A DNA stretch of 47,641 bases from a virus. Both the position numbers and the translations under genes were made by a program. Below the pieces are notes generated by a model. It saw only the letters and a program-made list of their open reading frames with translations, was not told the DNA's origin and made no database searches. This document shows positions 27,721 to 44,356 of the stretch, one piece after another. How positions within the stretch are numbered: the stretch's first letter is position 1; each line of letters starts with the position of its first letter. The stretch is taken from the IMG/VR virus record IMGVR_UViG_3300044632_001580, positions 1 to 47,641 of that record; one strand, 5' to 3'.

Positions 27721-28563
27721 CTAGTCTTCAGTATTGCTTCCTTGAAACTTCTTTTTTTCACCAGTCTTAGTAGTATACATTTTTAAAGATTTTTCTTCGT
27801 CATCAGATAATTTATTAATCATAGCCTGTAAATTTCTTTCATCATCATCTGAAAAACCTATTTGTGGTACAAACGAATTAGATACATCGTCAATCATTTC
27901 TACGTCTTTTTGTAAAAGTTTCGCCTGTTGTCTGACATATGATATAAATTTTCTCATAGCTTTAACTTTACCGTCTTCAGGATTTGTCGCACTTCCTTCA
28001 CCATGTGTAACAGGATAAAATTGACACATTTCTAAATATAAATTTATAAGTGTATTATCATCTAATTTTTCAGTTGGGAGTCCTTTAACTTTATCTCTAT
28101 ATTTTTTTAAATTTTTAACAATTTCTTGTTTAGAAATACCGTCGATTTCACCGTCAATTAATTGTTTTACCGCTCTTTTTAATGTATTTGGGTGATGACC
28201 TCTTGCAGTAATTATTGAAAAAATTGACCCACCATTTATTGCTTCTACAAAATCACTCCAAGCAGGACCTTTTTTCGCCATCAAACAACCAATCAAAAAT
28301 TCTTCATCACCTTTTTCTCCAAAATATCTAAACGGGTCATCTGAAAATCCTACAATAGTATTGCCATTATATTCAAACTCTTCTTTTCCAATTAATGTAC
28401 GGTATTTTGCAAAATCATGTGTACCCATACCAACCTCTTTACCATTTTTTTCTTTTAAGATAATTTTAGTTGGCATATACATTATATTATCATCCCAATC
28501 AAATGCATAATATTTTAAATCAGGAGTACCCTCTTCTGTGAAACCTTCAAAAATTCTTTTCAT
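27721..28563 (-). CDS. HAD-family hydrolase in the tail module, with capsid-targeting-like N-terminus
   Basis: A 280-aa protein if started at the ATG at 28563. An upstream TTG would lie inside the terminator hairpin and is rejected. All four HAD motifs are visible: D22/D24 in FDWDDNIM, T119 in SIITARGHH, a Lys in GKVKAMRKF near 199-205, and SDDDERNL at 238-245. It is therefore probably an active Mg2+-dependent phosphatase or phosphotransferase; substrate unknown. The first ten residues, MKRIFEGFTE, closely resemble T4 internal-protein leaders such as MKTYQEFIAE, which are removed by the prohead protease, so packaging is possible. It is a separate unit between sheath and tube, with a terminator and a TATTTAT element ahead of it. 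Confidence 0.85.
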   Translation of the reverse strand: MKRIFEGFTEEGTPDLKYYAFDWDDNIMYMPTKIILKEKNGKEVGMGTHDFAKYRTLIGKEEFEYNGNTIVGFSDDPFRYFGEKGDEEFLIGCLMAKKGPAWSDFVEAINGGSIFSIITARGHHPNTLKRAVKQLIDGEIDGISKQEIVKNLKKYRDKVKGLPTEKLDDNTLINLYLEMCQFYPVTHGEGSATNPEDGKVKAMRKFISYVRQQAKLLQKDVEMIDDVSNSFVPQIGFSDDDERNLQAMINKLSDDEEKSLKMYTTKTGEKKKFQGSNTED

Positions 28564-28568
28564 ATTAT

Positions 28569-28575
28569 ATAAATA
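28569..28575 (-). promoter_or_regulatory. Candidate late promoter element TATTTAT before the HAD gene
   Basis: The coding strand reads AATATTTATATAAT directly before the ATG and just after the sheath terminator, so it is well placed to start a new transcript. Confidence 0.45.
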
Positions 28576-28586
28576 TTGTTTAAAAT

Positions 28587-28612
28587 AAAAAACCCCCAAT
28601 AAGGGGGTTTTT
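28587..28612. terminator. Bidirectional-type terminator after the sheath gene
   Basis: A5-6 C5, a 5-base loop, G5 T5 forms a perfect inverted repeat. On the minus strand it lies 17 bases after the sheath stop codon and ends in a T6 run. It also explains the spurious upstream TTG start of the HAD frame. Confidence 0.88.
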
Positions 28613-33688: not shown

Positions 33689-35446
33689 TTGGAAACAGGA
33701 ACTTCACATTTAAGTATTGAACAAAAAGCCCTAAGTATTTTAGAAAATTATGAAGGGTCAAATAACTATATACTTAAAATTAAAAAACAATGTGAGACAA
33801 ACAAAAAACACATCCCAACTAGAGCTCAATGTGAGTATATAATAACTTATTATACCACAACTCCAAAAGTTGCCAAAAAATGGGTGGATATTGATTCTTA
33901 TTTTTCACAAAAACTTGTCGAGGATAATCCATTTATAAAAGAGCCTGATAAAATTTATGTAGAAAAAATTTTAATAGAAAAAGATAAATCTTATCATATT
34001 TGGGGTAAGATTCATAGTGGTGAAACTATTCATGATTTTTGGATACCTAAAGCCGCGATTGTTAAACAATATAAAGAAAATGTAATTGAGGTCGATTATT
34101 CTAAGTATCAAAATCGACTCCCCTTATCTCACCAAAAAGAAGCGATAGAAAAACTATTAAAAAATGATAAATTCATTTTAGCGGACGATATGGGATTAGG
34201 TAAAACTACCTCAACAGTAATTGCAAGTTTAGAAAGTGGTGCTAAAAAAATATTGATAATTTGTCCAGCGTCTTTAAAAATCAATTGGGAAAGAGAAATT
34301 AAAAATTATACAGATAAAAATATTTTTATTTGTGAAGGTAAAAAATATGAGGACAGTGATTTTGTAATTACAAATTATGATATCCTTAAAAATTTTTACG
34401 ACCCAAAGGACAAAGAAAATTCATTAATATTCAAATCAAATTTTGATTTAATCATAATTGATGAAGCACATTATGTTTCTAACGCTCAGGCACAAAGAAC
34501 CAAAATTATAATGGACTTAACTAAGAATGTTAAAAAACTTTGGTTATTAACAGGTACTCCAATGACATCAAGACCAATGAATTACTACAATCTTTTAAAA
34601 TTAATTGATAGTCCTGTTAGTCAGAATTGGATGGCGTACGCAATTAGATATTGTAACGGATATCAATTTAGGGTTGGTAATAAAAAAGTTTGGAATGTTA
34701 CAGGTGCATCAAATTTAGAAGAACTTAGAGAAAGAACTTCTCGTCAAATTTTAAGAAGACTAAAAACAGATGTTTTAGATTTACCTGAAAAAATAATGAC
34801 CCCTGTTTATTTGAGATTAAAATCAAAATTTTATGAAGGATTAATGGGTGAGTACTATGATTGGTATAATAATAGACAAGAAGAATCTAAATCACTTTCA
34901 ATACAGTTTACAAAATTAATGAAAGTAAGACAAGTTATTGCCGAAGAAAAAATACCAACAACAATTGAGTTAGCTGAAAATATTTTAGAACAAGGTAAAA
35001 AAGTAATCATTTTTAGTAATTTTACAGAACCTCTAAAAAAAATACATGAACATTTTGGTAAAAAATCAGTTTATTTAGATGGGTCAACTACAAAACCCGC
35101 AAGACAGGATGCTGTTGACAGATTTCAAACTGATGAAAAAGTTCAAGTATTTTGTGGTAATATTAAAGCCGCAGGTGTTGGTTTAACATTAACCGCGGCT
35201 GAGGCGTGTATTATGAATGATTTATCTTTCGTACCCGCAGACCATTCACAAGCTGAAGATAGAGCGTACCGATATGGTCAAAAAAATTCAGTTTCCGTAT
35301 ATTACCCAATTTTTGAAAATACAATTGAAGGGGTAATTTATGACATTTTAGATAACAAGAAAAAAATAATAGGAACTGTAATGGGTGACGACGGAACGTC
35401 CTCGGATATTGTTGAACAAATACTTAACGAAATCAATAGTAAGTAA
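33689..35446 (+). CDS. SNF2-family DNA helicase/translocase
   Basis: About 585 aa. Motifs in order: Q-like LSHQKEAIEKLL near 147, Walker A LADDMGLGKTT at 164-174, ICPASLKINWEREI (Ia), Walker B DEAH at 258-261, LLTGTPMTSRP (III), VIIFSNFTEPLKKIHEHFGK (IV), VYLDGSTTKPARQDAVDRFQ, AGVGLTLTAAEACI (V) and QAEDRAYRYGQ (VI). These mark a SMARCAL1/HARP-like SNF2 translocase, which could remodel forks or reanneal strands, perhaps doing part of what UvsW does in T4. No ATG fits: the frame opens after TAA at 33671 and offers TTG at 33689 or ATT at 33680. It heads the plus-strand cluster. Confidence 0.9.
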   Translation: METGTSHLSIEQKALSILENYEGSNNYILKIKKQCETNKKHIPTRAQCEYIITYYTTTPKVAKKWVDIDSYFSQKLVEDNPFIKEPDKIYVEKILIEKDKSYHIWGKIHSGETIHDFWIPKAAIVKQYKENVIEVDYSKYQNRLPLSHQKEAIEKLLKNDKFILADDMGLGKTTSTVIASLESGAKKILIICPASLKINWEREIKNYTDKNIFICEGKKYEDSDFVITNYDILKNFYDPKDKENSLIFKSNFDLIIIDEAHYVSNAQAQRTKIIMDLTKNVKKLWLLTGTPMTSRPMNYYNLLKLIDSPVSQNWMAYAIRYCNGYQFRVGNKKVWNVTGASNLEELRERTSRQILRRLKTDVLDLPEKIMTPVYLRLKSKFYEGLMGEYYDWYNNRQEESKSLSIQFTKLMKVRQVIAEEKIPTTIELAENILEQGKKVIIFSNFTEPLKKIHEHFGKKSVYLDGSTTKPARQDAVDRFQTDEKVQVFCGNIKAAGVGLTLTAAEACIMNDLSFVPADHSQAEDRAYRYGQKNSVSVYYPIFENTIEGVIYDILDNKKKIIGTVMGDDGTSSDIVEQILNEINSK

Positions 35447-35454
35447 GTATTTAT
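35447..35454 (+). promoter_or_regulatory. Candidate late promoter element GTATTTAT before the SOD gene
   Basis: GTATTTATTATTG precedes the SOD ATG, beginning immediately after the helicase stop codon. It shares the TATTTAT core with the other late leaders, here on the plus strand. Confidence 0.4.
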
Positions 35455-35459
35455 TATTG

Positions 35460-36170
35460 ATGAAATCATTAAATTTATTATCAGAATCTTTACAGAAAAA
35501 AATAACAGGTGATATAGTATTACCTGAAACAAAGTATTTTATCAATGAAATGAAAACCATAGGTATCGATAAATTACCGTATGGTTATGCATCTCTTCGT
35601 AGGTTTATTGACCCTGAAACTATGAAGTTTCATTATCAAAAACATTATAAAGGGTACGTAAAAAAATTAAACTCAGCGTTACGAAAAAGAGATTACGGTG
35701 ATGTTGAGTTAGAAAATATTGTTAAACAAATTTCAAAATATAATACCGTAATTAGAAATAATGCGGGTGGAGCATTTAATCACGCACTTTTTTGGAAAAT
35801 GTTATCTCCAACACCTCAAAAACCATACGGTGAAATTTTAGAAAAAATTAAAAAAGATTTTGGTTCTTATAGAGAATTTAAAGAAAGGTTTGAGTCTGTT
35901 GCAAAAAAAAGATTTGGTTCTGGATGGATATGGTTAGTAATAACAAAAAGTGGTAAATTAAAAGTGATGTCTACTCAAAACCAAGACAATCCATTGATGA
36001 ATATATTTGACAGAGGTGGGTTCCCAATTTTAGGGTTAGATTTATGGGAACATGCATATTATTTAAAATATCAAAATAAAAGAGACGAATATATTACAAA
36101 TTTTTGGGATGCGGTAAATTGGAAATTCATAAATGAACTTTATTTATCTAAAACTAAAAAGTCAAATTGA
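35460..36170 (+). CDS. sodA: Mn/Fe superoxide dismutase, Mn-type, with N-terminal extension
   Basis: A 236-aa enzyme converting superoxide to peroxide and oxygen. All four metal ligands are present: H58 in MKFHYQKHYKGY, H108 in AFNHALFW, and D194 and H198 in LGLDLWEHAYY. Q175 in STQNQDNPLM is the Mn-type second-sphere glutamine, and GSGWIWLV is the usual core strand. The family normally starts just before LPYGYASL, yet here about 38 extra residues precede it (MKSLNLLSESLQKKITGDIV and on). They include L-S-E followed by S, matching the prohead protease consensus. The frame is open further upstream into the helicase gene; the ATG at 35460 avoids that overlap. The gene lies between the helicase and gp13 genes. 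Enzyme identity is certain, packaging is inferred. Confidence 0.96.
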   Translation: MKSLNLLSESLQKKITGDIVLPETKYFINEMKTIGIDKLPYGYASLRRFIDPETMKFHYQKHYKGYVKKLNSALRKRDYGDVELENIVKQISKYNTVIRNNAGGAFNHALFWKMLSPTPQKPYGEILEKIKKDFGSYREFKERFESVAKKRFGSGWIWLVITKSGKLKVMSTQNQDNPLMNIFDRGGFPILGLDLWEHAYYLKYQNKRDEYITNFWDAVNWKFINELYLSKTKKSN

Positions 36171-36178
36171 TATTTATA
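36171..36178 (+). promoter_or_regulatory. Candidate late promoter element TATTTATA before gp13
   Basis: GATATTTATAAATA lies ten bases before the gp13 ATG, immediately after the SOD stop codon. It carries the recurring core. Confidence 0.45.
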
Positions 36179-36188
36179 AATAAAAACT

Positions 36189-37310
36189 ATGTCAGTAATT
36201 GCAGAACCATACAGAAGTGATTTATATACTAAAGTACGTCACGTATTAGGAGCTCCCCTACGTTCAATAGAACTTGAGGACGAACAAATGGACACTTTAT
36301 TAGAATTTTCAATAGGTGATTATTCACAATATGTTCAAAACTTTTTAATTGAGTCTCAGTGGGCTCAATTATGGGGATTAAATATGGACACTCAATCATT
36401 ATCAAGAGCGTTTGTAACTAAAGATTTTAATTTAGAACAAAGATACTCGTACGCCTATTCTAAAATTGTAGGATTACAAGCTGGAGGTGATTGGGTTTTG
36501 AAAAAAGATTATATACAATTATCTCCAGGTCAACAAATTTATGAAGTTCCCGCAGGTAGAGAAATTAATGAATTACTTTGGTTTACACCTGCCGAGTTAA
36601 ATAATATTTTATTTGACCCTTGGAGTTTTGGAGCATTAGGAGGTCCAGGTTTAGGTGGTCCCGCAGGTTACTCCCAAATGGGTTACTCAGGTTCATATTT
36701 CATGATGCCGGCATTTGATATGTTATTAAGGATGCAAGAAATAAACATCCAAAGAAGAATTATTGCGGGTGATTTAACTTATAGAATTACGGCTTTACCT
36801 GATGGTAAAAAGGGTATACATTTAATGCAGACACCTGGAGGTAGATTTGATTTTGGTAACTCAACTTTAATGAGAGGTAAAGTTTGGTATTGGTATTATG
36901 ATGTCGGTCCTGCTGATAGAGATAAATGTTTAAAACAAAATCCTGATATAATACGATTACCATCTGATGTACCACAAGATTCTATGTCTTGGGTTGATTT
37001 AAATAATCCCGCACAACAATGGGTGAGAAGATATTTTATTGCAAGTTGTAAAGAAACTTTATCTAAAGTAAGAGGTAAATATTCAGGAAATTTAAAAACC
37101 CCTGATTCTGAATTAACAATGGATTATACTTCGTTAGCTACTGAAGGTAAGGATGAAAAATTAAAACTGATTGAGGAATTAATTGGAGCTGAAGGTATTT
37201 TAACAAGATTAAAACCTGAAAAAGTGATGGAAAGGGAAGCTTTAACTGCTGAAAATTTAAACAAACAAATGAAGTTTAGAGCATTCCCAAGACAAATATA
37301 TGTAATTTAA
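36189..37310 (+). CDS. 13: Neck protein gp13-like
   Basis: A 373-aa protein. The N-terminus VRHVLGAPLRSIELEDEQMD followed by LEFSIGDYSQYV aligns in pattern with T4 gp13 ([20 protein letters not shown]). A Gly-rich middle (ALGGPGLGGPAGYSQMGYSG) and DMLLRMQEINIQRRIIAGDL correspond to the gp13 region with GGMG and MGMMQDML. The C-terminus WVRRYFIASCKETLSKVRGK matches the conserved [20 protein letters not shown] helix. Gp13 and gp14 form the neck joining head and tail. The gene is on the opposite strand from the gp14/gp15-like genes. It is longer than T4 gp13 (309 aa). Confidence 0.88.
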   Translation: MSVIAEPYRSDLYTKVRHVLGAPLRSIELEDEQMDTLLEFSIGDYSQYVQNFLIESQWAQLWGLNMDTQSLSRAFVTKDFNLEQRYSYAYSKIVGLQAGGDWVLKKDYIQLSPGQQIYEVPAGREINELLWFTPAELNNILFDPWSFGALGGPGLGGPAGYSQMGYSGSYFMMPAFDMLLRMQEINIQRRIIAGDLTYRITALPDGKKGIHLMQTPGGRFDFGNSTLMRGKVWYWYYDVGPADRDKCLKQNPDIIRLPSDVPQDSMSWVDLNNPAQQWVRRYFIASCKETLSKVRGKYSGNLKTPDSELTMDYTSLATEGKDEKLKLIEELIGAEGILTRLKPEKVMEREALTAENLNKQMKFRAFPRQIYVI

Positions 37311-42673: not shown

Positions 42674-44356
42674 TTAACTTTCTTTCCTTAATTTTGAATC
42701 ATAATGTTCAAAACGGTTATGTTCAGTAGGTGTAATTAACAATAATCCTGGATTTAGATTACCAATGACTGTTTCTTGAAACATGTGACTCATCCATGTT
42801 TGTTCATACGGATGATTCCATTTTGTTTCTAAAAACATTTTTTGATTTCCTGATTTGGAAACTATTTGAGGCCAATTACAATAAAATATTTCACCTGTAG
42901 CAACAGGTATATCTTCATACGATGTTATTGATGTAAACTTAGTTTTTGGAGAATTTGGGTCCAATCCCATTTCAGGTAATTTTGGATTTTCAGGCCAATG
43001 TTTTTCTCTAAATGACTGAGGTACATTATACCAACTCCATTGGGTCCCATTATTACCAAAAAATTCGGTATAATTTAATTTTAAAAAATCAAAATTATAA
43101 TTTTTAATAATGTTTAATGATTTGTTATATAAATTTTTTACATATCTATTAAATCCATTTTTACATACTTGTCCTTCTTCAGGATAAAAAAACATATCGT
43201 CTTCGAAAAAAAACATAAAGTCACTATCACTTTTTTCAAAATGTTCAGCTATAAATTGTCGACCACCACAAATTCCTAAATTTTCTTCAGACCAAATTAT
43301 TTCAAAATTATGTAACTCACATATTTTTATATATTGTTCATCAGTAGTTCTATCAGTAGAATTATTTAAAAGATATTTTTTTGGTTTTTCTATGAAATCC
43401 TTGTCATACGATATCATAGAAGTAATTAAAGTTTCAAGTTGTTTAGGACTGTTAAAACCAATAACATATAAAGACGTTTTATCGATATCTAAACCATTAT
43501 ACAAATTAATTGGTAATTTATTTTTTACTTCTAAAATTTCATTTTTAGCATTTTCAAAAAATGTACCTAATAATCCATCATAATTTATTTCGAAATAATT
43601 TATAATTTTTGGGTACTTATAAACCATTATTGAAAATATTGATTCTTCAGTACCCATATAACCTTGAGATAGAGTTTCATTTAACAACCCATAATAAAGG
43701 GAATTTACTTCCGCAATAGATTCTTTTGTTCCTCCAAAAAACCCTCCTCGTCCAACTAATCTTACATCATCATTCGCCCAATCATTAATTTTAGGATATG
43801 AAAACCCGTGAATTTCATTGTTTGCATCGTATGGAAAACAAATGAAAGAAAATTTAGTAATTTTACTATCTATTTTTTTTAATACATTATCATGTGTAAA
43901 ATACCCTACGTGAACTGTATTTGTTATACCAGCATCTATCCAAAATAATTTATCAGAATTAAATTTATCTAAAATTTTTGCATCGTGAAGAAGAAACATT
44001 TTAGACATCACTAATGGGTTGTAAAATTCTAATTTTGACTGTGTAGACTCAGGTAACCATGAAGATTGATTATACCATTTTTCGTCATTTCTAATACCTT
44101 GAATTTTGCCAAAAAACTCATTTTTAAACCACGATAATTCTCTTAATACAAATTGAGTGTTCTCAGATTTTCGGTTTTCCCAAACAAATTTTTCAAGCTC
44201 AGAGTCTCCAAATATTATTAAATTTTCCTCAATTGTTAGAAGTTGTTTAAATTTTTCTAAATAGTGTTCTTTAAATGGTCTCGCCCATCCTTCATTTAAC
44301 CCATCTCTTTTTAAATCCCAAAGCCCTGTAACTAAAGTTATCTTACTCATAATCAA
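42674..44356 (-). CDS. Bifunctional glycosyltransferase-like protein (HtrL/YibB-like plus GT2-like)
   Basis: A 560-aa two-part protein. Residues about 1-280 resemble the HtrL/YibB family: ITLVTGLWDLKRDGLNEGWA, YNPLVMSKMFLLHDAK, LFWIDAGITNTVHVGYFT, and a GGFFGGTKESI loop. Residues about 295-560 look like a GT-A glycosyltransferase: SLYVIGFNSPKQLETLITSM, EIIWSEENLGICGGRQFIAE and the acidic DFMFFFEDDMFF metal/sugar-nucleotide motif. It probably transfers sugars in two steps, on host polysaccharide or on virion proteins. Overlaps the previous gene by 14 bases. A second ATG two codons in is an equally good start. Substrate not predictable. Confidence 0.8.
   Translation of the reverse strand: MIMSKITLVTGLWDLKRDGLNEGWARPFKEHYLEKFKQLLTIEENLIIFGDSELEKFVWENRKSENTQFVLRELSWFKNEFFGKIQGIRNDEKWYNQSSWLPESTQSKLEFYNPLVMSKMFLLHDAKILDKFNSDKLFWIDAGITNTVHVGYFTHDNVLKKIDSKITKFSFICFPYDANNEIHGFSYPKINDWANDDVRLVGRGGFFGGTKESIAEVNSLYYGLLNETLSQGYMGTEESIFSIMVYKYPKIINYFEINYDGLLGTFFENAKNEILEVKNKLPINLYNGLDIDKTSLYVIGFNSPKQLETLITSMISYDKDFIEKPKKYLLNNSTDRTTDEQYIKICELHNFEIIWSEENLGICGGRQFIAEHFEKSDSDFMFFFEDDMFFYPEEGQVCKNGFNRYVKNLYNKSLNIIKNYNFDFLKLNYTEFFGNNGTQWSWYNVPQSFREKHWPENPKLPEMGLDPNSPKTKFTSITSYEDIPVATGEIFYCNWPQIVSKSGNQKMFLETKWNHPYEQTWMSHMFQETVIGNLNPGLLLITPTEHNRFEHYDSKLRKES

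Follow-up and report, generated by a model that had tools for sequence, protein, structure and literature searches.

A Mn-type superoxide dismutase of an uncultured T4-like phage lineage, probably packaged in the capsid and trimmed by the prohead protease

When metabolic genes turn up in uncultured phages, they are usually taken as help for the infected host. Superoxide dismutases (SODs) of freshwater phages were described in 2019 as stress genes, and a role in protecting the host under oxidative stress was proposed (PMC6802176). A different use of a viral SOD is known from the chlorovirus PBCV-1, whose Cu/Zn enzyme A245R is expressed late, packaged in the virion and thought to lower superoxide in infection (PMC7019647). 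Packaged proteins are also known from phage T4, where the prohead protease gp21 cleaves after L/I-X-E (PMC9026906) and internal proteins contact DNA phosphates via lysines (PMC3012670). A literature search on SOD combined with prohead protease found no relevant paper.

The DNA analysed here (the window, 47,641 nucleotides) comes from IMG/VR, where it is a virus record of 47.6 kb that is probably fragmentary, and no named phage is close to it. It carries a T4-like gene set (baseplate wedge, tail sheath, tail tube, gp13-like neck protein and UvsX) together with a DnaB-like helicase, RNR and a family B polymerase. On the minus strand, a protein with the HAD-like motif FDWDDN (27721-28599), without Pfam match, is encoded between the tail tube and sheath genes and has the CTS-like start MKRIFEGFTEEG, and an HtrL_YibB family protein (42674-44356; PF09612, E=1e-15) is conserved in two relatives, G002 and G005. 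The SOD locus has the following features.

33689-35446, + strand: SNF2-type helicase (phrog_62), conserved upstream neighbour, found upstream of SOD in 158 of 159 loci
35448-35454, + strand: TATTTAT, putative late-promoter motif, 12 nt ahead of the SOD ATG; commoner upstream of structural than of replication genes
35460-36170, + strand: SOD precursor, Mn-type Fe/Mn superoxide dismutase of 236 aa, assigned by Pfam, PDB, alignment and dN/dS
36171-36177, + strand: TATTTAT before the gp13-like gene
36189-37310, + strand: gp13-like neck/head-tail adaptor (phrog_211, E=1.5e-7), conserved downstream neighbour, found downstream of SOD in 151 of 152 loci

The SOD ORF spans exactly these bounds and begins with ATG; a second in-frame start, GTG at 35385, falls, however, within the 3′ end of the helicase gene, and TATTTAT stands 12 nt ahead of the ATG. 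Both Pfam domains of the family were detected well above their cut-offs, Sod_Fe_N (PF00081) with E=4e-22 (78.8 bits vs. 27) and Sod_Fe_C (PF02777) with E=1e-40 (138.2 bits vs. 20.9), and the closest PDB relatives are Mn SODs. The metal ligands H58, H108, D194 and H198 are all present, as are the second-sphere residues H62 and Y66 and the Mn-type Q175, and all of them are unvarying across the phage relatives in a 20-sequence alignment. The Mn-type signature is found as well, with Q175 in NQDNP and the Gly-Gly pair as NNAGG ahead of the second His ligand. The original prediction of a complete Mn-type SOD with its four ligands and Gln175 intact was thus borne out. The ligand motifs are kept in nearly all of 184 homologues, and a median pairwise dN/dS of 0.07 among relatives indicates strong purifying selection. 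As had also been predicted, this tailed-phage gene therefore probably codes for an active Mn-type SOD. Neither a PHROGs SOD family nor a PADLOC anti-defence annotation matched the protein.

Each of three SOD scans of IMG/VR yielded at least ~600 stretches, nearly all of them true relatives, and in hundreds of contigs the gene occupies a single fixed slot between the SNF2-type helicase and the gp13-like neck gene, separated from them by a median of 26 and 29 nt, respectively. From the retained loci 184 distinct SOD ORFs were taken; one of them (L136) is a bacterial-type record outside the phage clade, which leaves 183. When loci were counted from the gp13-like gene, SOD filled the slot in 63 of the 67 with room for it. 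SOD thus comes close to being a core gene in this lineage of uncultured T4-like phages, and its supposed rarity in tailed phages, part of the original prediction, applies to named phages only. The location between a helicase and a neck gene (phrog_62 and phrog_211), away from metabolic genes, had been described correctly; that it places SOD in the late/virion gene set is a clue which had been overlooked.

Few named phages have SOD-like proteins, namely the PA5oct-like phages and Vibrio phage 2.275.O, at 25-26% identity. A search of named phages returned 29 SOD matches, most of which look like either distant homologues from jumbo phages or bacterial DNA within phage records. Among matches H1-H9, several GenBank 'phage' records resemble fragments of bacterial chromosomes, a trap for counts of phage SODs. 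A protein of an uncultured freshwater phage that is 82% identical (UniProt A0A6J5L953, 501 aa) is already named superoxide dismutase.

Regarding its origin, 29 phage SODs formed one clade with 100/100 support against 35 bacterial SODs, a sample of Pseudomonadota and Verrucomicrobiota only, and the stem between both groups was long (1.09 changes per column). The best bacterial identity to the phage SOD was 51% in 200 Pseudomonadota, 49% in 96 Verrucomicrobiota and below 60% in plasmids. With such identities and a separate clade, a recent capture from a bacterium is unsupported in this sample. As to the host, Shine-Dalgarno-like sequences precede few genes in two relatives (14/251 and 16/363), a scarcity that would fit a Bacteroidota host.

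The N-terminus of the protein comprises a leader and predicted cut sites, as follows.

35460-35549, + strand: N-terminal leader, residues 1-30, a putative capsid-targeting propeptide, partly within the low-confidence stretch outside the fold and absent from bacterial SODs
35478-35486, + strand: first L-x-E motif, LSE, residues 7-9
35541-35549, + strand: main predicted prohead-protease site, I28-N29-E30, with the cut before M31 ([ILV]-x-E in 183/183, E30 unvarying; MCP-site rule)
35550-36167, + strand: predicted mature SOD, residues 31-236, of canonical bacterial MnSOD length (computed 24.5 kDa, pI 9.8)

The alignment to the SOD domain begins at residue 36, equivalent to residue 4-5 of bacterial MnSODs, most matches to bacterial SODs begin around residues 32-38, and residues 16-43 lie outside the fold of the AF2 model with pLDDT <50. 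The extra N-terminus that had been singled out as unusual for the family is therefore real and absent from bacterial relatives, although its length is ~31 residues and not the ~38 first given. The original prediction was to be abandoned if relatives lacked this extension; they were found to carry it, ending in a conserved protease-site motif. A signal peptide was set aside on inspection, the leader being charged and without a hydrophobic core.

Directly before the start of the mature SOD, all 183 distinct homologues show [I/L/V]-x-E followed by [M/A]-K (consensus [M/A]-K-x-I-G). In the 178 that passed a strict anchor, the Glu is unvarying, position −3 is occupied by I (124), L (51) or V (3) and the middle residue is freely variable; the remaining five escaped this anchor and carry the same [ILV]-x-E motif. 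[ILV]xE has a background of 1.8% per position. On large syntenic contigs of relatives, gp21 (PF03420, E~1e-27) and gp23 (PF07068, E~1e-64) are encoded; this region lies outside the window fragment, and both genes are known from the syntenic relatives only. The maturation site of the capsid protein in the lineage reads LINE↓A or LINE↓S in the five distinct capsid proteins read (5/5), and the SOD site in the window reads FINE↓M, where cleavage would leave a protein of 206 residues, an ordinary size for a MnSOD. As [LI]xE is short and also occurs within the SOD fold, at residues 126, 195 and 224, the motif alone is no proof of cleavage.

The mature phage SODs are strongly basic, with a pI of 9.2-9.8 in all 178 measured vs. 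4.6-8.3 in 35 bacterial SODs; the median pI of the phage proteome is 5.5.

The late promoter of T4 is TATAAATA. In two relatives, TATTTAT was detected upstream of 70 of 251 genes (15.5 expected) and of 97 of 363 (22.8 expected), and in three genomes it preceded 19 of 28 structural-gene instances vs. one of 24 for replication genes (Fisher p=1.8e-6, with classes assigned by hand). Among the distinct SOD ORFs, 170 of 183 have it 9-30 nt before an in-frame ATG. TATTTAT thus looks like the late promoter of the lineage. Many ATGs in the window, G002 and G005 have the motif 11-14 or 20-26 nt ahead of them.

Another leader recurs in the lineage. A near-identical N-terminal sequence, MKKVVRLTESDLVRIVKRVIxE, begins at least seven small proteins in each of two relatives; beyond it the proteins differ, and several of their genes also have the TATTTAT motif. 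The loci are as follows.

LTESDL-leader proteins of relatives G002 (L101-L115) and G005 (L116-L133), e.g. G002:238902-239204 and G005:9194-9589

Internal control windows gave 2/1206 and 0/1264 matches, and this leader is a candidate for targeting a large set of packaged proteins to the capsid. A profile search with it did not match the SOD leader, which has no detectable homology to it. Compared with T4-type CTS proteins, SOD has the short N-terminal propeptide ending in L/I-x-E, and its syntenic relatives encode a protease of the gp21 type as well as a gp23 whose maturation site matches. The gene shares the putative late motif TATTTAT with structural genes. Homology of its leader to the one that recurs in these phages was not found with the profile.

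In many relatives SOD is part of a larger protein. About half of all relatives run 300 aa past SOD, and in approximately one-third (~58 of 183 distinct ORFs) a HEWVH metalloprotease-like domain of 140-180 aa, weakly resembling SprT-like peptidases (E=0.03), lies ahead of it. The common C-terminal module, absent from the window protein, has unvarying E, D and QxK, an AF2 model with pLDDT 90.7 and best Foldseek matches of moderate E-value to I-Ssp6803I (E=1.8e-3) and Hjc (E=3.1e-3); with both the catalytic motif and the fold, it is predicted to be a PD-(D/E)XK-like nuclease. The linkers behind SOD in the fused forms contain [LIVM]xE in all 134 cases and at least two copies in 127, 343 in total compared to 170±11 in shuffled sequences, and the N-terminal linkers contain 449 compared to 289±14, the main site excluded. 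In four loci (L385, L393-L395) the slot holds the leader and the nuclease with SOD alone cleanly missing, and L/I-x-E motifs flank the joint. As judged from these sequences, gain and loss of modules occur at boundaries defined by the predicted cut sites. Behind SOD, the C-terminal modules vary by subclade, with at least four unrelated-looking types (L067, L068, L225, L238, L264 and L273). A stand-alone HEWAH metalloprotease-like protein (G005:72310-72702; L120:4310-4702), with only a weak Peptidase_M76 match (E=0.04), is encoded beside capsid genes and ends in KIFE where the fused version has the cut-site motif.

The best reading of these data, and a likely one, is that of a late, capsid-packaged Mn-type SOD trimmed by the prohead protease. 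From the identity of SOD, its intact sites, conserved leader and motif, late-type motif, charge and modularity, and from gp21 and gp23 in relatives, we infer packaging, cleavage, ejection and a biological role as follows. SOD would be made late in infection as a precursor, and its ~30-residue leader would act like a capsid-targeting propeptide of T4, taking the precursor into the prohead core. There, a gp21-type protease would cut after Glu30 (FINE↓MKTIG), leaving a basic SOD of normal length in the head with the DNA. Ejected with the DNA, the enzyme could clear superoxide as soon as infection of the host begins or, alternatively, it could act in the free particle, in the vicinity of the packaged genome. 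Relatives encode in this slot a polyprotein with up to three predicted cargo modules, SOD among them (the others being HEXXH metalloprotease-like and PD-(D/E)XK-like nuclease), with predicted cut sites of the prohead-protease type between them. For the lineage as a whole we lean towards a T4-like jumbo-phage group that packs a modular metalloprotease/Mn-SOD/nuclease polyprotein in its heads, to be freed by the prohead protease.

The gene could instead be an ordinary auxiliary gene of the infection phase, in which SOD sustains the host under oxidative stress and the uncut leader is a functionally neutral tail. A role of this kind has been put forward for freshwater phages at large (PMC6802176), purifying selection acts on an intact SOD domain, and packaging need not follow from a late motif. 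A neutral tail, however, leaves unexplained an [ILV]-x-E that is invariant at a fixed place ahead of a canonical SOD start in 183/183 homologues, the same kind of site in the linkers on both sides, the modular polyprotein and the uniformly basic charge, and we consider this explanation possible but rather unlikely.

Alternatively, the HEXXH metalloprotease-like module or a host protease might cleave the precursor in place of the prohead protease. This is improbable: the HEWVH domain is indeed fused before SOD in ~58/183 distinct ORFs, and zincin-mediated self-processing has been proposed for polyvalent proteins (PMC5512222), but forms without the metalloprotease, that of the window included, retain the same site, which obeys the L/I-x-E rule and matches the site of the capsid protein itself. 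Repurposing of SOD as a basic DNA-binding head protein, with dismutase activity incidental or lost, would agree with the pI of 9.2-9.8 in every member measured and with the long stem of 1.09 changes per column. Nevertheless, it has very little probability, as the ligands and the second-sphere Tyr, His and Gln are unvarying in the aligned set, the ligand motifs persist in nearly all of the 184 homologues and dN/dS is 0.07. Packaging of SOD as capsid cargo, with trimming by the prohead protease, most simply accounts for the unvarying site and those in the linkers, the exchange of modules, the late-type motif, the high pI and the location next to a neck gene.

If so, this would be the first bacteriophage carrying or delivering a ready-made superoxide dismutase in its virion. 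A packaged SOD would exert its effect on the virus particle or within the first minutes of infection, when no phage gene has yet been expressed. Superoxide would then be a candidate for a host defence or an environmental hazard against which these abundant, mostly freshwater phages act as soon as they arrive. The internal-protein route of T4-type phages would then carry metabolic enzymes as swappable cargo, and [LI]xE linkers plus the late motif could serve as a sequence rule for finding other packaged enzymes in uncultured phages.

Compared with known systems, the phage protein resembles bacterial MnSOD (SodA type, PF00081/PF02777) in fold, ligands, the Gln of the C-terminal domain, Gly-Gly and length without the leader. 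It differs in the conserved ~30-residue leader, the strong basic charge, the fusions found in relatives and its position in a separate clade (100/100) whose identity to the bacterial SODs found does not exceed 51%. The SODs of uncultured freshwater phages (e.g. A0A6J5L953) belong to the same gene family and include the fused form; they were read as host-protecting stress genes, and neither processing nor packaging was proposed in the papers found. Those of PA5oct-like Pseudomonas jumbo phages, whose PA5oct copy has an ESI-MS/MS note, and of Vibrio phage 2.275.O share the Fe/Mn SOD family, but at 25-26% identity and without a comparable leader or the Mn-type NQD motif.

As to packaged viral enzymes, A245R of PBCV-1 is likewise a viral SOD; it is late and virion-packaged, as predicted for the phage enzyme. 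In contrast, A245R has an unrelated Cu/Zn fold, belongs to a eukaryotic algal virus and is not described as processed by a prohead protease. Polyvalent proteins of phages and conjugative elements are also multi-enzyme polypeptides, some of them in heads and with zincin-like domains, but no SOD module has been reported in them, whereas the linkers of the phage SOD obey the prohead-protease rule. A likeness is also seen to IPI, IPII, IPIII and Alt of T4, which are targeted to the capsid, cut by gp21 and ejected: both have a short N-terminal propeptide ending in L/I-x-E, a late-type motif and a basic mature protein, with gp21 and gp23 in the lineage. The leader resembles the T4 CTS in motif and not in demonstrated sequence homology, and, unlike the T4 internal proteins, the predicted cargo is a metabolic enzyme, often within a multi-enzyme polyprotein.
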